Part shown: positions 24,041 through 50,723 of the stretch, in pieces
Layout of the letters: each line of letters begins with the position of its first letter
Position numbering within the stretch: position 1 is the first letter of the stretch
IMG/VR virus record: IMGVR_UViG_3300021180_000006
Span: 22,799 to 86,798 of that record
Strand: one strand, 5' to 3'
DNA length: 64,000 nt
Source: a virus
Notes under the pieces: generated by a model
What the model was told of the DNA's origin: nothing
Databases searched by the model: none
Seen by the model: the letters and a program-made list of their open reading frames with translations, nothing else
Made by a program: the position numbers and the translations under genes

Positions 24041-25003
24041 CTAATTAAAAGTTAATGAATAGTCATCGTCTCCAGAAGTCCGGGTCGCAATAAACTCCAA
24101 CGTGTCCGCCATCACGCCCTCGCGGTCCTCATCCTGCGGCGGGTTATTCAACTGCGCCTTGGGGGCGGAGAACTGGAGTTGGTTGCCCGCCGGGCCAGCG
24201 GTGAAGGCGAAGTTGTAGGTGGTCTGCGCGGTATGGGCCGCGAAAAAGTCCAGCGTCGAGAGCAGGTAGCTTTCCGGGGCAATACGGATTAGAGGCTCGC
24301 GATCGGTGACGATGCCGCCGCGGAATCCGGTGCCGACCGGGGTGGAAGCGCTATCGACGGCGGATTGGTCCTGTCTCAGATAGAGCTTATTTCCCGAATG
24401 AAACTCGAAATTGGGGAAGCGCATCGACTGGCCGCCCACCGTGACCGTCACTCCCGCGAAGCGCGGCGGAATCGTCGTCGGATAGGTAATGCCGCCGGGG
24501 ATGGCCGTCGTCGAAGGGCTCTGCCAGACGCCGTCGAAAGTCCACTCGAAATAGATTGGGTTCCCCGCCTGCGCCCGGATGACGAAGTCGCCAGCGCAAC
24601 CGGCCAGGAGCTTCAAGCGCCCGGCCTGGAACAAACCGATCGAGATGGTGTTGATCGGGCTGGCCGGGGTGGGGGTGAAGGGAGAGAAGGGGCTGCTGGT
24701 GCCGGGACCCAAACCGCAAGCCGGCAGAAGCAAGCTGGCCCAGGCCGGGGCGCCGGCAGTGGAGAAGAACTCGGTGCGGAACGTCGCCTTGCCGGCGCGG
24801 GCGCCGGGGATGGTGAGCAGCTTGGAAAGATACTGCTGTCCCTGGCGGACATTGGGCTTGATGTCCGGGGTGATCTTGGGATCGAAGACGGCGCTGAACA
24901 GTTGGCAGTCGGAGCTGCCGGGCGTGACGACGACGCCGGTCGTAGCCTCGAGTTTTGCGCCGAAAACTCGGTTGCGTACTAACAAGTTTGGGTCGAACGC
25001 CAT
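24041..25003 (-). CDS. Major tail tube protein
   Basis: 320 aa. Begins MAFDPNLLVRNRVFGAKLE, has ITPDIKPNVRQGQQYLSKLL and GARAGKATFRTEF, a strand-rich middle (YFEWTFDGVWQSP) and a DREGVMADTLEFIATR end, a pattern of phage tail tube proteins with internal insertions. Placement upstream of chaperone and tape measure agrees. Expected to be an abundant virion protein. Confidence 0.75.
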   Translation of the reverse strand: MAFDPNLLVRNRVFGAKLEATTGVVVTPGSSDCQLFSAVFDPKITPDIKPNVRQGQQYLSKLLTIPGARAGKATFRTEFFSTAGAPAWASLLLPACGLGPGTSSPFSPFTPTPASPINTISIGLFQAGRLKLLAGCAGDFVIRAQAGNPIYFEWTFDGVWQSPSTTAIPGGITYPTTIPPRFAGVTVTVGGQSMRFPNFEFHSGNKLYLRQDQSAVDSASTPVGTGFRGGIVTDREPLIRIAPESYLLSTLDFFAAHTAQTTYNFAFTAGPAGNQLQFSAPKAQLNNPPQDEDREGVMADTLEFIATRTSGDDDYSLTFN

Positions 25004-25575: not shown

Positions 25576-25660
25576 GGTCATTTGTCACTGGTCACTGGTC
25601 ATTGGTCACTTGCCCGAGCCGCGCGGCAAAACAAATGACCAGTGGCAAATGACCAGTGAC
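25576..25660. repeat. TCACTTG-type long hairpin, copy 1
   Basis: Left arm made of seven-base units (GTCATTT, GTCACTG, GTCACTG, GTCATTG, GTCACTT; 25576-25612) and right arm of their complements (25632-25660), with a GC-rich centre. It lies between two leftward genes. Related hairpins are at 48076, 48561 and 50522. Confidence 0.85.
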
Positions 25661-25670
25661 GCCGGGCGCT

Positions 25671-27596
25671 TCACGCCCGGAAGCTGTACGGATCGTTCCA
25701 GTTGGTTCGGTATTCGACGTAGACGCGCGTGATGACCCCTTCGTGCTCGCCCGCCTCGCGCTCGAACCACGACGGCGGCGCCGGCAGCGTATTGGCCGCC
25801 AGACCGCCGCGGTGGGGATCGAGCTGGAGCGCCTTCTCGATGTCGGCGCGGACGATCAGGACCAGTTGATCGGCGGGGATGGGCGGTGAACCGCTCGGTC
25901 CTGGCTCGGGCTGGGCGCAGGTGGCGATGATCTCGAATTCCTGAATCCAGCATTGGATGTTGTTGCACTGGAGTTCGCGGTTCCACTGCGCTCCGCCGAG
26001 TTGCACGTCGGCGACGACGGTGATGCCGTCCGTCCCCACTTCACCCAAGCGATCGGGCTCGGTCGAATAGCAGTTGCACTGGTAGCCTTGCTCGACCGAG
26101 ATGTCTCCGACGACCTGGAGGATGTTCTGGCGGATGCGCTCGATCAGGGGGAGATTGCCGCCCAGGAGTGTGGCGCCGGCGGTGACGATGCTGAACGAGT
26201 GCTGATGGAAGAACGAGCCGGTGGCGAATACGTCGTTGGCCTGGACCGTGAAGGTGCTGCTGCCGGCGGTGGTGGGCGTGCCGGAAATCGTCCCCGTCGA
26301 AGCATTCAGAGTGAGGCCGGCCGGAAGGCTCCCGGATGCGATGCTGAAATTCTGGCTGGTTCCCTGCGTCTTGGCGATCTGGAGGGCCTGAGAATAAACC
26401 TGGCCCACGACCGCACTGGCGACTGAGGCGGTGGTGATGTTGATCAGGTCAAACTCGACGACGCGGTATTTGAAACTTTCGTAACCATAGAGGACGTTGT
26501 TGACGGGATCGAAGGCGTGACCCGGCTCCAGTCCGGTGAAGGCGCTTTGCGAAGTTCCCGCATTGCTGCTGACCCAATCGGCGGCGTTGAGGTTCTGGCT
26601 GGCGTTGGCGCCGTTGAAACTGGAGGTCGCGCTGTTGGGAACGATAAACTCGACGATGCGGACGTTACTGGAGTCGCAAGCCCAGAGCCGGTTCGCCGTC
26701 GAATCGTAATTCAGATCGTCGGGACCGTTCAATCCGTTCTGCGTATAGGTGCTGCCGGCGTAGTGGGTGAAGTCGGCTTGCCCGAGCACGAAGGTCGCGT
26801 TCTCACCGTTGATGCCGCTGCCTGATCCGGGGGGCGCGCTAAAGCACAAGATACGGTTGTTGGCCGAATCGGAGACGAACACGCGGGCATTGACCGGATC
26901 GTATGCGATCCCAAAGGGGCTGGTCATCCCCGCTTGTCCGTTGCCTGCGACCTTGGCGGTGAAACTCGATTGACCCAGGACGAACGAGGCGGCCGGGTTG
27001 CTGGCGCTGGAATCGTAGACGCCGTTGGCGACCGGGAAGCACATGACCCGGTTGTTGCCCGAGTCGCTCACAAACAATCTTCCGTTGACCGCGTCATAAT
27101 CGATGTCGTCCGGTCCGGCCAGTCCGGTTTGGGTTGTGGCCGATCCGTTGTGAGTAAAGTCGGTCTGCCCGATGACAAAAACCGCTGCGGCAAAATCGGT
27201 CAGATTCCCCGGCCGGCAATCGAAACAGAGGACGCGACGGAGGCCGCTATCGCTGAGGAACAAGCGGGCGTTGGCGTTGTCATAGCAGAGATTGCAAAAA
27301 CGAAAAGTCTGTGACGTGGTCGCCCCGCTGCCGACGACGTTGAAATTGGCGGCGCCCAGCACGTGAATGGGAAGGATGGGCATCGTTCCCGGCACGCGAT
27401 TGTTGTTGTCCAGTTGGAAAACCAGGACGCGGTTGTTTACGTCGTCCGCCACAAACAGGCGGTGCTGAACGGTATCGAGCGCGATGCTGGTGGTCTGATT
27501 GACTCCCTGCGAAGTGGTACTGCCGCTGGGCGAGTTCACGACGTTGGCCGTGAAGCTGGTCTGACCCAGGACGATGGAACAGTTCAGGATGGCCAT
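25671..27596 (-). CDS. NHL-type beta-propeller fused to putative tail terminator domain
   Basis: 641 aa. Residues 1-380 hold about six repeats of the type VIGQTDFT, then RLFVSDSGNNRVMCF, the NHL/six-bladed propeller pattern. Residues about 385-465 form a putative Ig domain (ASGSLPAGLTLNASTGTISG, the He_PIG signature). Residues 475-641 (LPLIERIRQNILQVVGDISV to VYVEYRTNWNDPYSF) look like a tail-terminator/neck protein and sit where phages place that gene, just upstream of the tail tube. A propeller on a neck protein is unusual and may bind host surface ligands. Confidence 0.65.
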   Translation of the reverse strand: MAILNCSIVLGQTSFTANVVNSPSGSTTSQGVNQTTSIALDTVQHRLFVADDVNNRVLVFQLDNNNRVPGTMPILPIHVLGAANFNVVGSGATTSQTFRFCNLCYDNANARLFLSDSGLRRVLCFDCRPGNLTDFAAAVFVIGQTDFTHNGSATTQTGLAGPDDIDYDAVNGRLFVSDSGNNRVMCFPVANGVYDSSASNPAASFVLGQSSFTAKVAGNGQAGMTSPFGIAYDPVNARVFVSDSANNRILCFSAPPGSGSGINGENATFVLGQADFTHYAGSTYTQNGLNGPDDLNYDSTANRLWACDSSNVRIVEFIVPNSATSSFNGANASQNLNAADWVSSNAGTSQSAFTGLEPGHAFDPVNNVLYGYESFKYRVVEFDLINITTASVASAVVGQVYSQALQIAKTQGTSQNFSIASGSLPAGLTLNASTGTISGTPTTAGSSTFTVQANDVFATGSFFHQHSFSIVTAGATLLGGNLPLIERIRQNILQVVGDISVEQGYQCNCYSTEPDRLGEVGTDGITVVADVQLGGAQWNRELQCNNIQCWIQEFEIIATCAQPEPGPSGSPPIPADQLVLIVRADIEKALQLDPHRGGLAANTLPAPPSWFEREAGEHEGVITRVYVEYRTNWNDPYSFRA

Positions 27597-27599
27597 GGT

Positions 27600-27715
27600 T
27601 CGAGGAGGAGGGGGTGAGGGGGGAGGAGGAGGGGGTGAGGGGGAGAAGGGGCGAGGGGGTGAAGGACAGAAGCTCTCCCCCTCGCCCCCTCACCCACTCT
27701 CCCCCTCTCTTCACG
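27600..27715. repeat. GA-rich tract folding back as a hairpin
   Basis: GGGTGAGGGGGAGAAGGGGC-type repeats run to 27660 and are followed by the complementary CTCCCCCTCGCCCCCTCACC at 27673-27705, so the whole intergenic segment can form a long hairpin between two virion genes. Confidence 0.8.
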
Positions 27716-28637
27716 AATTTTGCCCGCTCCAGGCGTTGGCGGCGTTGAAGTCGGGGCTGATCCCGTTGGTGAAGACGATCTGCGTATCGCTGACCGTCTT
27801 GAATCGTCCGTTGCGCAGGCTGGTCGAGGTGATGGTGAAGCTCTCCCCGCTCTGGCTCAGATCGAGCAGTCCGCCGTTGCGCAGGTTCAGTTGCGTGATG
27901 CAGGCCGCGCCGGCGTTGCGGTGCAGGCAGTGGATGGTGCCGCCGTCACAGGTTGCCGTGGGGACGAGGTAGGTGCCGCGGGTGAACAGGTCTCCAGCGA
28001 AACAGATCAGGGCCGTGACCGGGGTCGAGTTGACCAGAACCTGGCCGCCGTCGTTGACCACGTTGCTGTAGGTGACGCCCGAGCCCAGATTGCAGACGCC
28101 GCCGGTGACGTTGACGTTTCCGACCGTGGTGGTGTCGGTGTAGTTGTCGGTGGCGATGCCGATGCCGCCTGATCCGCCCAGGACGTTGATATCGCAGGCG
28201 GCGTTGTTGGCGCGGATGCGGACGGTTTCCTTGCCGGTGTCGATGGCGCGGGGATTGGCCTGGAAGACGTTGACGATCGGCGACGTCGTCCCCAGATCGA
28301 GGTTGATGCGCTGGCAGCCGACTTGGGTAGAGCTACTGGCGGCGGCGGCGGGGAGGTTGATGCCGACTTGGTTGCCGTTGGTGACGTTGAGCTTGAGGGG
28401 CGTGCCGTTGCTTCCGAACAGGATGGTCCCCGGTGAGGAGGAGCCGAAGGTGCCGTAGATGGTCAAGGTGTTGAAGACGACCCCGCCACCGGTTTGATCG
28501 GAGCCGTTGATGGCGCTGACGGCGGTGGCATCGAAGATCAGATCGTCACCGTTGCCGGGCACGCCGGAGGGGGACCAGTTGCCCGAGGTGGCGAAGTTGA
28601 AATCGCCGATGGTGCCGGACCATGTTTTCTTAGCCAT
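27711..28637 (-). CDS. Beta-helix/autotransporter-like virion protein
   Basis: 308 aa. Begins TWSGTIGDFNFATSGNWSPS and continues with VPGNGDDLIFDA, a pattern typical of autotransporter-associated beta-helix repeats. The remainder has regular Asn/Gly/Thr-rich strands (FNTLTIYGTFGSSSPG, VGNVNVTGGVCNLGSG). No signal peptide, so a virion protein (fibre or decoration) is more likely than a secreted adhesin. Confidence 0.6.
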   Translation of the reverse strand: MAKKTWSGTIGDFNFATSGNWSPSGVPGNGDDLIFDATAVSAINGSDQTGGGVVFNTLTIYGTFGSSSPGTILFGSNGTPLKLNVTNGNQVGINLPAAAASSSTQVGCQRINLDLGTTSPIVNVFQANPRAIDTGKETVRIRANNAACDINVLGGSGGIGIATDNYTDTTTVGNVNVTGGVCNLGSGVTYSNVVNDGGQVLVNSTPVTALICFAGDLFTRGTYLVPTATCDGGTIHCLHRNAGAACITQLNLRNGGLLDLSQSGESFTITSTSLRNGRFKTVSDTQIVFTNGISPDFNAANAWSGQNS

Positions 28638-32360: not shown

Positions 32361-32363
32361 TGA

Positions 32364-32431
32364 TTTCCAAAGGTGGCGGGAAGGTGGCGGGGAAGGTGGC
32401 GGAAGGTGGCGGAAGGTGGCGGAAGGTAGCC
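32364..32431. repeat. Tandem GGTGGCGGAA repeat
   Basis: About six near-identical units (GGAAGGTGGCGG type, 10-12 bases) between the phosphatase start and the head-closure-like gene. Short tandem repeats of this kind can change copy number. Confidence 0.8.
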
Positions 32432-32432
32432 T

Positions 32433-32795: not shown

Positions 32796-32836
32796 CAGTT
32801 AAAACTCGAAACTCGAATGACGAATGACGAAACCGG

Positions 32837-32854
32837 AGCGCTACACGTAGCGCT
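32837..32854. repeat. Short perfect hairpin between genes
   Basis: AGCGCTAC and GTAGCGCT are separated by two bases. The same bases form a direct repeat GCGCTACACG. Possibly an RNA processing or termination hairpin for the leftward transcript; there is no T run. Confidence 0.45.
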
Positions 32855-32865
32855 ACACGACGCAT

Positions 32866-36689: not shown

Positions 36690-36692
36690 GGA

Positions 36693-36793
36693 GGAAAGAG
36701 AGAGGGGGAGTGGGTGAGGGGGAGAGGGGGGTGACGGGGGAAAGCCTAGCTTTGCTTTTCTCCCACTCGCCCACTCGCCCCCTCTCCCCCTCC
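36693..36793. repeat. GA-rich tract and its inverted arm
   Basis: GAGAGGGGGAGTGGGTGAGG-type sequence (36699-36740) is followed after a short AT-rich loop by CTCCCACTCGCCCACTCGCC and CCTCTCCCCCTCC (36761-36793). The second arm lies in frame at the 3' end of the next gene and encodes its Gly/Glu/Arg-rich tail. Confidence 0.8.
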
Positions 36794-37483
36794 TCCCGCC
36801 TCCGGCCGCAACGGCTCAAACCCCTCGGGCAGCGCGACATCCGGCGGCGGGGGCAATTCCCGCTCGACTTTCCTGCCCAGGTTCTCCCACTGCCGCTGGA
36901 AGTGATAGGCGTAGGAGCCGATCCGCGCGAAGCGGCAGCCCTCGTTGAAGACCTTCACCTTGAAATCGGCGTCGTTGTCGTGCGGGAACGGGATCTTGTC
37001 GGGCAGCCCGCCCTTCTCGAGAAACCAGCTTTTGCGGAAGGCCGAGGGGCTGTACCAGCCGAAAATGTCCAGCTCGATCGAGGACCGGCCGGCGTTGTCG
37101 ACGGCGCAGAAGTGCTCGAAGCCGGGGCGATCGAAACTCGTGGCGGTGCGGCCGAAGTTGGCCCCGATGTTCGAGCCCGCCACCCCGATGGCGCCGCACT
37201 CGACCAGTCGCAGACAGAGCCAGTCGGCATCGTTGATGTGCCGGCGGATATTCTCGTCCCAGCCGGGGGCATAGACGATATCGGAGTTGTCCCAGAGGAG
37301 AATGTCGTACTTAGCGCGTTTGGCCAGCCAGTTCCATGCCGGATAAACATCATCGGGCGTGGTGCCCACGACGTAGAGCAACTGGTAGGGACAGCAGGTA
37401 TTGTCCGCCAGCATCTGGCGTTTGAGTTCCAGGCAGGCGTTGTTCTCCGGGCTGTCGTGATGGGGGAAGATCAGGGAGATCAT
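36746..37483 (-). CDS. GT-A glycosyltransferase (family 2-like)
   Basis: 245 aa. MISLIFPHHDSPENNACLEL is the N-terminal strand-loop, ILLWDNSDIVYAPGWDENI carries the DxD-like acidic site, and FPHDNDADFKVKVFNEG the second acidic loop before a basic end. The C-terminal 20 residues come from the GA-rich repeat and are probably not native. Sits within the glycan block. Confidence 0.65.
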   Translation of the reverse strand: MISLIFPHHDSPENNACLELKRQMLADNTCCPYQLLYVVGTTPDDVYPAWNWLAKRAKYDILLWDNSDIVYAPGWDENIRRHINDADWLCLRLVECGAIGVAGSNIGANFGRTATSFDRPGFEHFCAVDNAGRSSIELDIFGWYSPSAFRKSWFLEKGGLPDKIPFPHDNDADFKVKVFNEGCRFARIGSYAYHFQRQWENLGRKVERELPPPPDVALPEGFEPLRPEAGGGGEGASGRVGEKQS

Positions 37484-45637: not shown

Positions 45638-46323
45638 GCCGCCAGCGGTTCACACCCCGGAAATCCTCCCGCCTTCCGCGCCAGAAACAGGGCCTGATCG
45701 TGTCCCCACCGCGCCGTCGCCTTGTGCATGTAAAGCGGCTGGGGCTGTCCCGTGCGCGAATAGTGCTCGTGCCGGATGGTCAGGTCCGGGCGCTGCCAGA
45801 GGAGAGGAGAAACGGGAGAGGGGGAGAGGGGGTGAGGGGGCGAGGGGGTGAGGGTGACATCGTGCAATTCCTCATCCGCGAAGTAATGGTTGTATCCCGG
45901 CCAGAACGCTCCAGCGCCGCGGTTGAATCTCAGGATGAACCCGCGGCTCAGCAGGGGCGAACCGCAGATGCGCTCAGAACCCGATTCGCCGGTGCACTGC
46001 ATCACACCTAAAGCCCCGTGGCCAAAATGGGCGGTACACTCATGGGCAATCCGGCAGGCGGGCAGGTCCGGGGGATACATATCGTCGCCGGCACAGCAGA
46101 TCCACTGGAGGTCGAATTCCTCCTCCAAGAGGAAGCGGCACAGGGCGTTGGTCGCTTTGGGATAACCTTCGTAGGCACCCCAGAGGACGTATTCGGCGCC
46201 GACCCGCTCCATGCCTTCATCGCGGAAGACAGCGCACTTCCAGCCCTTGTCCCGCCAGGCACAGAGGACGGGATCGCAGTCCGAGGCGGACTTGGCGCTG
46301 GGGAAAGCGACGAAGGGGGACAC
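45634..46323 (-). CDS. GT-A glycosyltransferase-like protein with low-complexity insert
   Basis: 229 aa. SPFVAFPSAKSASDCDPVLC opens, LQWICCAGDDMYPPDLPACR bears the DD motif and RHEHYSRTGQPQPLYMHKAT the C-terminal His/Asp region. A GA-rich tract (45800-45857) inserts about 20 Ser/Pro-rich residues around 155-176 without breaking the frame. Probable sugar transferase. Confidence 0.55.
   Translation of the reverse strand: MSPFVAFPSAKSASDCDPVLCAWRDKGWKCAVFRDEGMERVGAEYVLWGAYEGYPKATNALCRFLLEEEFDLQWICCAGDDMYPPDLPACRIAHECTAHFGHGALGVMQCTGESGSERICGSPLLSRGFILRFNRGAGAFWPGYNHYFADEELHDVTLTPSPPHPLSPSPVSPLLWQRPDLTIRHEHYSRTGQPQPLYMHKATARWGHDQALFLARKAGGFPGCEPLAA
45800..45857. repeat. GA-rich tract inside a gene
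   Basis: GGAGAGGGGGAGAGGGGGTG-type units in the coding region of the gene at 45634; the reading frame is preserved. Only one arm is present here. Confidence 0.75.
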
Positions 46324-47060: not shown

Positions 47061-47182
47061 ACGAGAAACCGCCAAGCCGCAGAATTGAAACGGCTCAACT
47101 TCCGCGGTACTTCCGACTCGCTTGGAGATGTTCCACTACTGGCGGTCCCATCGACGGCTCGGCATCGAAGATACAGGTATAG
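47057..47182 (+). CDS. Possible third gene of the cassette, probably truncated
   Basis: 41 aa, ATGA overlap with the gene before. MNEKPPSRRIETAQLPRYF then enters sequence antisense to the glycosyltransferase at 47095, so the real 3' end was likely lost when the cassette was inserted. Weak. Confidence 0.25.
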   Translation: MNEKPPSRRIETAQLPRYFRLAWRCSTTGGPIDGSASKIQV

Positions 47183-47706
47183 GCGGAGGGCAATTGCATC
47201 ACGGCCAGGTGCGGATGTTCCTTGACCACGTTCTCCAGGGAGAGCTGGTCGTAATCATCGGGATGACTCTCGCATCTCTCCCGCCAGTCTTCCACCAGCT
47301 CGATCGACGCCTTCCCTCCTGAGAAATACAGCGTCCCGCTCAAGAGTTCCGTCCCGCCAAGCGGCGCGGGCCTGGCCTTCCAATGCGCCGCAAAGTCCGG
47401 CGCCGGCAGCGGTCCCAGATCGTGCCCCATCTGTTTGAGCGCTTCGCGCTGCGCCCAGATTTCAAACAGCTCGGGATATTTCCGGACCCGTGAATCGGCG
47501 TCGAGCCAGACGACTGGCCGACGGGGATGGGAAAACATCGTCAGCCCCAGGAACCACGCCTTCTGCTGCGTGTTGACCACCCAGCCGCCGCGATCTCCCA
47601 GAGGCAGAACTTCATGCTCCAGCTCGAAGCGCGACAGCGTCTCGATCAGCCCCCCGGCATGGGCCTCGTACAGCGGCGTATAGAAGCTGACGTAAAGCGG
47701 ATGCAA
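47095..47706 (-). CDS. GT-A glycosyltransferase-like protein
   Basis: 203 aa from a TTG at 47706 with GGAG five bases ahead; the longer frame is shadow of the next gene. HPLYVSFYTPLYEAHAGGLI, then RRPVVWLDADSRVRKYPELF with the DxD metal motif, and LLSGTLYFSGGKASIELVED as acceptor-side segment. The start lies in a GACGCGGTGACGCGAAGACG-type repeat. Confidence 0.6.
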   Translation of the reverse strand: MHPLYVSFYTPLYEAHAGGLIETLSRFELEHEVLPLGDRGGWVVNTQQKAWFLGLTMFSHPRRPVVWLDADSRVRKYPELFEIWAQREALKQMGHDLGPLPAPDFAAHWKARPAPLGGTELLSGTLYFSGGKASIELVEDWRERCESHPDDYDQLSLENVVKEHPHLAVMQLPSAYTCIFDAEPSMGPPVVEHLQASRKYRGS

Positions 47707-47744
47707 CTTGTCTCCGTGTCCCCGCGTCTTCGCGTCACCGCGTC

Positions 47745-48044
47745 TCAAATTTTGACCCACTCGGCAAACCCGAACACGCTGGTCATGTCGCCGTTGACGC
47801 TGGCCTTGATGAGGACGTTGTTGTTGTGCTCCTCCCAGCTCTCGGCGTACTGCGTGATGTTCGCCGTGCTCTTGGGGATGTAGGCCCAGGTGTTGCCCCC
47901 ATCGAGCGAGAAAAACCCGTCGGCGGTCGTGGAGTTGTTCCAGATGATGACGTGGTTGTACATCGCCGAGGAGGACGGCATTTTGATGAGCGTGACCGGG
48001 GTCGCGCCGTTGGAGCTGATGCCGATGGTGCCGCTTGAGTACAT
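47745..48044 (-). CDS. Small virion protein (decoration/fibre-like)
   Basis: 99 aa from ATG 48044. MYSSGTIGISSNGATPVTLI then ADGFFSLDGGNTWAYIPKST: a beta-rich module with a sialidase-like Asp-box (LDGGNTWAYI). Next to the DUF2190 gene, so possibly a capsid surface protein. Confidence 0.6.
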   Translation of the reverse strand: MYSSGTIGISSNGATPVTLIKMPSSSAMYNHVIIWNNSTTADGFFSLDGGNTWAYIPKSTANITQYAESWEEHNNNVLIKASVNGDMTSVFGFAEWVKI

Positions 48045-48075
48045 GATAAATCTCGGGAGGAGGGGAGGAGGGAGA

Positions 48076-48153
48076 GTCACTTGTCACTTGTCACTGGTCA
48101 CTTGTTGGGCGCGCGCCCTCTGGCAAGTGACCAATGACAAATGACCCATGACC
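48076..48153. repeat. TCACTTG-type long hairpin, copy 2
   Basis: Left arm 48076-48104, perfect palindrome GGGCGCGCGCCC in the centre (48108-48119), right arm 48124-48153. Lies between two capsid-surface genes. Confidence 0.85.
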
Positions 48154-48158
48154 AATAA

Positions 48159-48518
48159 TCAGGCGTTGAGGATCAGGGCCGCCGTGGTGGCGGCGGAGTT
48201 GAACACGCCGTAGGACCGGCCGCAGCGGGTGTTGGTCCCCGAGGTGCCGGTAAGCCACAGATTGAACGGGTCCCAGTAGAGGATCTGCCCGTCCGTGAAG
48301 GCTTCGCCGACTCTTTTGGCGATGGGGGAGACGACGCGCTCGTCGCCGCCGCCGATGGCCAGCTCGCCCGAGGCCCCGATAGCGATCGAGGTAATGGCGA
48401 TGCCGACAAAGCCGGTGGTGGGACCGGGGGAGAGGATCTGGAGCTGGCTGCTCGCGATCGCCACCCCGGTGTTGTTGGTGTAGGTGTAACGATTGCCACG
48501 TTTGAATCCGACGATCAT
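48159..48518 (-). CDS. DUF2190-like capsid decoration protein
   Basis: 119 aa from ATG 48518. YTNNTGVAIASSQLQILSPG, TTGFVGIAITSIAIGASGEL and AIGGGDERVVSPIAKRVGEA follow the DUF2190 pattern (a small beta-barrel found beside phage capsid genes). Immediately downstream of the major capsid gene. Probably stabilises the head surface. Confidence 0.7.
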   Translation of the reverse strand: MIVGFKRGNRYTYTNNTGVAIASSQLQILSPGPTTGFVGIAITSIAIGASGELAIGGGDERVVSPIAKRVGEAFTDGQILYWDPFNLWLTGTSGTNTRCGRSYGVFNSAATTAALILNA

Positions 48519-48560
48519 GACTGTTTCTCGCTTTTTGTGTTTGAGGGAAAGAGGAGGGGA

Positions 48561-48632
48561 GTCACTGGTCACTTGTCATTGGTCACTTGGAATGACCGCT
48601 GACCAATGACAAATGACAAGTGACAAATGACC
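48561..48632. repeat. TCACTTG-type long hairpin, copy 3
   Basis: Left arm 48561-48589, short GAATGACCGCT centre, right arm 48601-48632. It lies between the decoration and major capsid genes. Confidence 0.85.
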
Positions 48633-48635
48633 GCT

Positions 48636-50429
48636 TTAATGCCCGGCGTTCTTGTAGACGCCGCGGAAGTCGATGGCCTTTCCGGCAACCGTATGGCGCA
48701 CCAGGTATTTCACGTCCTCGGTGTCGAAGTCGGTCTCCTGGCGGATGACGGGCTCGGGCTCGTCGGTCAGGAAGCTGAGTTCGATGGTGTTGACCTGTCC
48801 GTCGCGGAAATCGGCCACCAGGAACCAGGCTTGCGTGTCGGCATCGTCCAGACGGACGCTCCCGACCACCTGGTAGCGGTTGTTGTAGGGGTTGAAATCG
48901 CCCACCGTCTGCGGCACCGCAGCCGACGACGACTGGCTGGCGATCAGGGTCCGGGAACCGATCAGTTCCTTGGTCTGCTCCTCGATCGAGGAGGGGACCA
49001 GGAGGAACTTGGGCTCCAATTCAAGGCGGGCCGCACCGGCCAGACCTTTCTGCTTCTTCATCGCCGTCGAGCCGATTTGAAGCTGGAGCACGCTGGGCAC
49101 GCCGCCCGAACCGGCGGTGGTGAGGTTGCTGTGGGCGGCGGAGAAGATGGCGTTGCCGTCGGCCATGTTGGCGTTGCCGGTGATGACGGCGTAGGCCACG
49201 TCGTCTTCCTTACGGGCGGCGGAATTGGCCTGCGCCCTGGGAATTGCGCTAAAAGCATCCAAGTCGTCGTTAATGATGGCGTTGCGCGTTAAACGGACAC
49301 CAGCTTTGTACGTGACCAGCACGTAGGTCTCTTTCGAGTCCTGGAGCTGGACGTACTGCATTTCGCCGGCTTCGTTGGCCGCGACCATGTTCGGGGCTTC
49401 CGACAGGACAACCCGATTGATGTTCTTGAAGTCCGGGTTGAAGCGCTTCTCCGCCCAGGCGGGCCAGGTCCGCTTGGCGTCCAGATAGTTGAAGCGCAAA
49501 CTTTTGTTGATCGCGTCGAGCGTGATGTTGCCGAAATCCGGGGTGGATTCCGCCAACGCCGCCATGCGCGGGAAGGCTTGCCGCATGCGGCGCGGGCCCA
49601 GGCAATCGGCCAGGCGGGTCTTGGAGTAGCCGTAGACCTCGGTGAATCCAAGGGACGCCAGGTAATGCCGGAACATGTCGAGCATGGACAGCTCGCGCAG
49701 TTCCTTGGCCCGATCGAGGATCTTGCCCTCGTATTTGATGATCTGCTCGGCCGCCAGTCCGGCGCGGAGCACGATGGCCTGCGGCATGGCGGCGCGCAGG
49801 CTGGCGAGGTTCTTGTCCTCGCCCACCTTCACGCTCAGGAGCGGCTTGGCCGACTCGTGCACGTAGCGCAGGATGGCCATCCGGGCCTGCTCGAAGGTGC
49901 CGTTTTCCGCGATCACCGTATTGGCATAGGCATCGGGAACGGCGTGCAGGGCGGCCAGTTTGCGGATGCGGGCCACTCTTTTTGCCTCGAAATCCAATGC
50001 CGCGTTGTCGTTGTCGGCATCGTCCAGCTTGGCGGCGACACCGCCGGCCGCCGGCGCTTGCATGCGCTGGCCCTGGGGGAGTTTGGCGCCGGTGGCGGCG
50101 CCCAGTGCGGCGATCGCGGCCTCGGTGGCCAGCTTGATGATCTGCTCCTGGCTCATGCCGGTGGCGGGGACGGCCACGCCCTGGCCGGGCAATGCGCCAG
50201 CGGCGCCGGAATCGCCGGAGTTGCCGGCGACGGAGGGCTGGCCGGGAACGGGCGGGCCGGCGTGCAGGCCGGTATCGCCGCCGTCGCCGTCCATCATGCG
50301 CGCGAGCTTGGCGTCGATGTCGGCGCGTTTGTCGGCCGACAGGCCGTCGTAATAGGACTTGGCGTCATCATCTGAGGCATCGGCGTCGCAGCCGTTCGCC
50401 ACGAGAAGTGACTTGAGATGGGGGTGCAT
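48636..50429 (-). CDS. Major capsid protein with N-terminal scaffold-like region
   Basis: 597 aa from ATG 50429, preceded by AAGGAG. Residues 1-190 are Ala/Gly/Asp-rich and probably a cleaved scaffold or delta domain. From about 200 the capsid domain follows: LRELSMLDMFRHYLASLGF, PAWAEKRFNPDFKNINRVVL, YAVITGNANMADGNAIFSAA and LSFLTDEPEPVIRQETDFDT, as in the Mu gpT/protease-associated capsid families. Upstream protease and downstream decoration gene agree. Should be the most abundant virion protein. Confidence 0.8.
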   Translation of the reverse strand: MHPHLKSLLVANGCDADASDDDAKSYYDGLSADKRADIDAKLARMMDGDGGDTGLHAGPPVPGQPSVAGNSGDSGAAGALPGQGVAVPATGMSQEQIIKLATEAAIAALGAATGAKLPQGQRMQAPAAGGVAAKLDDADNDNAALDFEAKRVARIRKLAALHAVPDAYANTVIAENGTFEQARMAILRYVHESAKPLLSVKVGEDKNLASLRAAMPQAIVLRAGLAAEQIIKYEGKILDRAKELRELSMLDMFRHYLASLGFTEVYGYSKTRLADCLGPRRMRQAFPRMAALAESTPDFGNITLDAINKSLRFNYLDAKRTWPAWAEKRFNPDFKNINRVVLSEAPNMVAANEAGEMQYVQLQDSKETYVLVTYKAGVRLTRNAIINDDLDAFSAIPRAQANSAARKEDDVAYAVITGNANMADGNAIFSAAHSNLTTAGSGGVPSVLQLQIGSTAMKKQKGLAGAARLELEPKFLLVPSSIEEQTKELIGSRTLIASQSSSAAVPQTVGDFNPYNNRYQVVGSVRLDDADTQAWFLVADFRDGQVNTIELSFLTDEPEPVIRQETDFDTEDVKYLVRHTVAGKAIDFRGVYKNAGH

Positions 50430-50521
50430 ATGCACTCCTTCAAAAATGGAGAGGGAGAACGAACTGCGACCCGGCAACGCGCCGAGTCCATGCACCGCCG
50501 TTTTCAAGAGCTGGTGGGGGA

Positions 50522-50640
50522 GGTCACTCGTCATTGGTCACTGGTCATTTGTTTAGGGTTCCCATCCGCGATCAATCGCGGATGGGAGGCCCTTGGGCGC
50601 GCGGCCCTGGCAAGTGACCAGTGACAAGTGACAAATGACC
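50522..50640. repeat. TCACTTG-type long hairpin, copy 4
   Basis: Left arm 50522-50551, right arm 50610-50640. Inside is a perfect 12-bp hairpin CCCATCCGCGAT/ATCGCGGATGGG (50561-50586) and TTGGGCGCGCG near 50594, shared with copy 2. It is in the leader between protease and major capsid gene. Confidence 0.85.
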
Positions 50641-50650
50641 AGGGGGTTAA

Positions 50651-50723
50651 AGCGTCGACCGGAGTTTCCTCCGATCGAGCGCTGAAAACGGCGGACGACT
50701 AACGCGCCCAAGCGTCCACCGTT
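50651..50723. other. Two strong hairpins in the major capsid leader
   Basis: AGCGTCGACCGGAG pairs with CTCCGATCGAGCGCT (50651-50685; one mismatch, one bulge), then AACGGCGGACG with CGTCCACCGTT (50687-50723; one mismatch). With the TCACTTG hairpin they fill the gap between protease and capsid genes. From 50724 to 50891 I see no gene and no clear element. Confidence 0.55.

Follow-up and report, generated by a model that had tools for sequence, protein, structure and literature searches.

Heptamer-built hairpins behind stop codons in the virion genes of an uncultivated virus: a possible REP-like RNA element

Introduction

REP sequences adjoin the 3' ends of open reading frames in unidirectional as well as convergent gaps (PMC3733652), and those lying no more than 15 nt from a stop codon stall ribosomes and induce mRNA decay, according to Liang 2015 as cited in PMC5082802. 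The hairpins described here resemble the REP/BIME/REPIN group (PMC3733652, PMC3116915) in being extragenic palindromes near ORF 3' ends, in occupying unidirectional and convergent gaps, in occurring in several phyla and in their likely role at the RNA level. They differ from that group in lacking a GTAG/CGTC tag, in their much longer stems made of 7-mers and in having no link to RAYT.

Heptameric repeats are also known from intergenic DNA, namely STRR of Calothrix, GGGAATC/GGGGAYT of Xanthomonas and Nostoc (PMC4692102) and TAACTGA of Beggiatoaceae (PMC4679880). Our elements share with them the 7-nt tandem unit, the intergenic location and the patchy occurrence across phyla; the GGGAATC family (PMC4692102) additionally shows a stop-codon bias and occasional inverted pairs in convergent gaps, and TAACTGA (PMC4679880) overlaps a GTCAGTA/TAACTGA variant found here. 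The unit is nevertheless a different one, and the inverted, base-paired form dominates in our case. Roles as G-quadruplexes or at start codons were proposed for those repeats (PMC4692102, PMC4679880), whose occurrence in phages is not described there. Paired degenerate heptanucleotide repeats likewise make up the P6b hairpin of the cyanobacterial tRNA-Leu(UAA) intron, including that of Nostoc (Costa 2002; PMC3488679). As in our elements, these repeats pair, vary in copy number and receive extra inserts; P6b sits in a group I intron, whereas the phage and bacterial elements are free-standing behind stop codons.

Here we analyse four heptamer hairpins in the late region of a phage, within a window of 64,000 nucleotides (the whole stretch of DNA under study, bases 22799-86798 of the 86.8-kb uncultivated virus record IMGVR_UViG_3300021180_000006; GC content of the window, 61%). 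Intercistronic RNase III sites cut the late polycistronic mRNA of T7-like phages. Those sites, like the present hairpins, lie between virion genes in a phage operon; unlike them, they are not built from repeats, and processing at the present hairpins is putative.

Results

The original prediction that four loci carry facing arms of a degenerate heptamer is borne out by array counts and by folding. Tandem GTCAYTK units stand opposite MARTGAC in an exact 7-bp register, with 4-5 units per arm and stems of 25-30 bp. Runs of three tandem units with no more than one mismatch number 17 in the window, all inside the four loci, as against none in 100 dinucleotide shuffles, and the hairpins fold at -36 to -80 kcal/mol (z = -6 to -11 relative to dinucleotide shuffles). 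The other 22.8 kb of the record contains no heptamer array.

All four hairpins, and the genes around them, lie on the minus strand. Copy 1 (25577-25660; five GTCAYTK and about four MARTGAC units) has its first unit 10 nt past the stop codon (25671) of the gene on its 5' side, which encodes Ig-like and NHL repeats (25671-27596), and a minor tail protein gene lies close to it (24041-25003; phrog_290, E = 3e-10). A small GC hairpin, CCGGGCG TGAAG CGCCCGG (25662-25682), just precedes copy 1 and holds the stop codon of gene 25671-27596 in its loop. Copy 2 (48076-48152; four units facing four, core TTGGGCGCGCGCCCTCTGGCAAGTGACC) is found 6 nt past the stop (48159) of a gene for a 119-aa head decoration or cement protein (48159-48518; phrog_122, E = 4e-9; Phage_cement_2, E = 6e-11), which is flanked by copies 2 and 3. 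On the 3' side of copy 2 follows a probable small gene of 99 aa (47745-48044); the ORF 47095-48087, which extends into the hairpin, is probably not the real gene. Copy 3 (48561-48631; four units facing four, with a short loop) begins 4 nt past the stop (48636) of the gene for a 597-aa Mu-like major capsid/protease fusion protein (48636-50429; PHROG phrog_4523, E = 2e-96; Pfam Phage_capsid_4, E = 7e-42), which by tblastn is 31% identical to Rhodobacter phage capsid-protease fusions. Copy 4 (50523-50639; four units facing four, with the core of copy 2) is separated from the previous stop by 252 nt and falls within the capsid 5' leader. Three of the four copies are thus post-stop elements and copy 4 is not.

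The centres of the hairpins had been described as different, apart from a core common to copies 2 and 4. This holds for that pair and leaves out copy 1, which has the same core inverted. The core, absent from copy 3, consists of TTGTT, a GC-rich mini-palindrome and GGCAAGTGACC, and copies 1 (inverted), 2 and 4 have both end motifs in common as well, so that these three look like copies of each other. Such a family could have arisen if a small mobile element of the host, MITE or REPIN-like, had moved into the phage by transposition and then made further copies of itself. Other elements do sit in loops, as would suit this explanation: about 41 nt with their own palindrome are nested in the loop of copy 4, and small dispersed GC-rich palindromes have been inserted repeatedly into the loop or arms in different Nostoc species (L251-L257, L264-L270). 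Several observations nevertheless speak against mobility and make it improbable: the record and the hairpin-rich genome G009 both lack a Y1 transposase, there is no GTAG tag, a target duplication was not found, the core is unmatched in species genomes, and bacterial loops are conserved across orthologous sites but differ among sites within a genome. A 12-bp inverted repeat encloses copy 4, with CCGCCGTTTTCA as its left arm (50495-50506) and TGAAAACGGCGG as its right arm (50683-50694; both on the plus strand), and no duplication is seen flanking it.

Three established identities were considered and rejected. For REPIN/RAYT, the Y1 tyrosine transposase (PF01797) is absent from the phage record and from G009, a genome with 26 + 29 strict matches. 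For tagged REPs, which have a GTAG or CGTC foot and a stem of 5-13 bp, no GTAG occurs on the sense-strand feet and CGTC occurs at one foot in a single copy, with stems of 25-30 bp. For the P6b hairpin of the tRNA-Leu intron, there is no Rfam match and no tRNA in the window.

Strong hairpins past stop codons might also be intrinsic transcription terminators, as had been suggested. That suggestion failed: no T-run follows the stems, the corresponding RNA has no U-run, no terminator-like site is present at the hairpins, and their tails are C-rich or mixed. We regard intrinsic termination as highly improbable. The C-rich, G-poor tracts of the sense strand are found after hairpins 2 (48046-48075) and 3 (48519-48560) and, less clearly, 4 (50480-50522); the first 25 nt past these three hairpins contain 44-60% C and 0-16% G, a composition compatible with Rho loading.

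The same late region holds two hairpins in which an unrelated 8-mer, NGAGKGGG, faces CCCMCTCN with the same architecture. One (27611-27708, minus strand; z = -3.3) starts 2 nt past the stop at 27711, at the 3' end of gene 27711-28637; in the other (36692-36795, minus strand; z = -3.2), the stop of gene 36746-37483 falls inside the loop region. A search of other viral contigs for the 8-mer hairpin gave no match. The 8-mer also forms a direct array at 45818-45856, and direct arrays in the gaps 32361-32432 and 32796-32865 consist of 7-mers (GTCATTC and TTTCGAG) and of CCTTCCGCCA-type 10-mers; short tandem units occur in several of the larger late-region gaps. Because these 8-mer hairpins and direct short-unit arrays co-occur with the heptamer hairpins, the phage carries a style of intergenic repeat and not one sequence.

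Beyond this phage, the heptamer repeat is present in many phyla but patchily, in scattered species. Among viral contigs, 39 stretches carry four direct units and eight carry the inverted form; about ten other, unrelated phages have heptamer arrays. In species genomes the inverted form occurs in at least 104 stretches from at least eight phyla; among the matches listed are Nostocales and other Cyanobacteria, Planctomycetota, Saprospiraceae and other Bacteroidota, Mucilaginibacter, Nitrospinota, Anaerolineae (Chloroflexota), Desulfobacterota, Acidobacteria and Kapabacteria. Strict matches in positive genomes reach 26 in the forward and 29 in the reverse orientation, compared with 0-1 for a control pattern read backwards. 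Two genomes, G370 and G309, do match the pattern read backwards without complementing, which points to a mirror-image 7-mer family (CAGTRAM-like) in them. With a 7-nt tandem period and dispersed intergenic copies biased to gene 3' ends, the elements are heptameric repeats of the STRR-like kind. Viral contigs with GTCACTGGTCACTT / GTCACTGGTCACTTTCGATTTGACACTAG or close variants, mostly beside TTCC arrays (L013, L014, L017, L021, L023, L026, L035, L037, L038, L043, L045, L049), represent an unrelated repeat family of their own and were set aside.

It had further been proposed that a dispersed host repeat was captured by the phage. In favour of this, the unit forms the same hairpins in many bacterial genomes; against it, none of 84,980 species genomes matches the phage core pattern. 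A blastn search with copy 2 against cultured phages and plasmids also returned no match, although the low-complexity filter may hide matches. One candidate host phylum has capsid homologues of no more than 35% identity and few heptamer elements, with 3 of 294 genomes positive. Genome G476 carries a GGCAAGTGAC variant, which none of its relatives in the same order has. Since the core is unmatched and the repeat is patchy, we can only infer that the hairpins may have come from a host.

Where the elements lie within intergenic gaps is the feature most suggestive of a function. We called genes at the bacterial loci as simple longest ORFs and took gaps of at least 80 bp as background. Inverted elements fall into co-directional, convergent and, rarely, divergent gaps in the proportions 90/23/9, with 283/49/80 among background gaps. 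Among the 90 co-directional elements the stop upstream is 4 nt away in the median, and 82% of them are within 15 nt of it, as opposed to 60% expected with uniform placement in the gap (upstream versus downstream distance, Wilcoxon p = 0.001); this control is conservative, because longest ORFs also shift the downstream start toward the element. Direct arrays in co-directional gaps have GTCA on the sense strand in 16 of 18 cases, and all 16 are within 15 nt of the stop. In other phages, too, intergenic arrays, inverted or direct, are mostly found between -8 and +13 nt relative to a stop (L011, L012, L016, L020, L025, L028, L040, L042, L051, L053). Their neighbours include terminase and portal genes (L051), tape measure, tail chaperone and major tail protein genes (L053), genes for a major head protein and a protease (L016) and a major head protein gene (L025). 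Virion genes are not enriched beside phage arrays above the control, however, at 14 of 30 flanking genes versus 8 of 20 other genes of the same loci.

The evolution of such an element was followed at one orthologous Nostoc gap (L113 5394-5451) in 53 genomes from a single genus and some 60 from its family. The gap holds 2-10 units per arm, a number that changes fast between species, while the loop is kept across orthologues. Where the heptamer array is missing, family members show a different unit arrayed on both arms, another palindrome or a small inverted repeat. The unit classes at this gap are GTCATT/AATGAC, GTCAGT/ACTGAC and GTTAG/CTAAC; among the replaced units, GTCAGTA faces ACTGAC in two sequences (L283, L284) and GTTAGGA faces CTAAC in four (L344, L346, L348, L370). 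The two arms co-evolve at this slot. In 59 Nostocaceae orthologues the halves of each element fold together at -16.1 kcal/mol, compared with -13.0 +/- 0.45 kcal/mol when halves are swapped, and none of 2000 permutations was as low; for 29 family-level sequences the values are -13.8 and -10.4 kcal/mol, again with 0 of 2000. Own arms thus pair better than swapped ones, so pairing was kept, or copied, while the unit sequence was replaced. Because orthologues share ancestry, the swap result is no tally of independent events.

These data bear directly on a neutral or selfish origin, in which arrays grow by replication slippage from a small inverted repeat behind a stop, are tolerated there because nothing is broken, and travel in the phage as passengers. 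Heptamer slippage has been proposed earlier (PMC4679880; PMC4692102), and it would account for the rapid shifts in unit number between Nostoc species and for array-less relatives such as L289, in which one small inverted repeat, GTCAT..ATGAC, marks the corresponding spot. It also fits the uncorrelated arm lengths, the missing RNA strand signature and the existence of single-arm arrays. It explains less readily why the two arms change in concert, why placement within the gap is biased toward the stop codon, why arrays are retained in compact phage operons, and why a quite different 8-mer has the same form in the same phage. Neutral slippage is a real though not leading possibility, which ranks close behind the REP-like reading developed below.

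The strand signals just mentioned are null results. Among 82 co-directional elements the sense strand folds better in 42 and the antisense strand in 38, G-U pairs number 103 on the sense and 107 on the antisense strand with no bias, and the lengths of the two arms show no coordination among independent elements (rho 0.06). In some Nostocaceae orthologues just one arm has survived (L288, six units versus none), and some gaps are weakly structured. The absent strand bias also weighs against a further putative role, in which the hairpins would serve as RNase III sites or stabilise 3' ends and the late polycistronic message would be cut between virion genes in a T7-like manner. Stems of 25-30 bp at gene boundaries near the capsid and decoration genes are what such sites might look like, yet the elements are common in bacterial convergent gaps too, and we consider this explanation unlikely.

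Discussion

Based on the above data, we tentatively favour the view that in its four hairpins the phage carries copies of a widespread, patchy class of REP-like post-stop RNA hairpins, which end cistrons and are made from tandem degenerate 7-mers. It is supported by the post-stop bias, the folding z-scores of -6 to -11, the arm-swap result, the precedent of REPs and the 8-mer with the same architecture. According to this model, the hairpins would be transcribed as part of the late virion operon, and each 25-30 bp stem would fold a few bases past the stop codon of its cistron. The stem could then obstruct a terminating or reinitiating ribosome as well as 3'-to-5' exonucleases, whereby the upstream cistron would have its yield and stability set separately from those of its neighbours. 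Copy 4 might act in the same way within the leader of the capsid gene. Transcription, action at the RNA level and the direction of the effect are thus all suggested by structure and position, from which we infer that the hairpins are used, or tolerated, in virion operons. The case for an RNA function is weakened by the missing sense-strand advantage, the uncorrelated arm lengths, the single-arm orthologues and the location of copy 4 away from a stop, and also because the flanking of arrays by virion genes is not above the same-locus control. RNA processing or the setting of capsid gene dosage, as named in the original prediction, is a possible role. To that prediction the present analysis adds the post-stop position, which is the strongest functional clue, the concerted replacement of arms at the Nostocaceae gap, and the two 8-mer hairpins, which had been overlooked.

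A broader and rather doubtful generalization would be that bacteria and phages have in common a broad class of post-stop hairpins selected only for their pairing. Behind one and the same stop codon, tandem arrays of 7- or 8-mers would be rebuilt continually, with new units on both arms. Through an effect on the mRNA end or on the ribosome as it terminates, the hairpins would determine how much the upstream cistron yields, capsid genes included.

Heptamer arrays to which no function has so far been attached occupy the gaps between genes in scattered species from many phyla, where they yield repetitive nonsense ORFs. Their recurrence behind stop codons across phyla and in unrelated phages suggests an under-described way to mark gene ends. 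Arrays that lie post-stop in compact virion operons, and whose arms change in concert, offer a small, testable setting in which a functional RNA hairpin can be told from tolerated slippage, and they may provide a handle on how stoichiometry is set in late phage operons.
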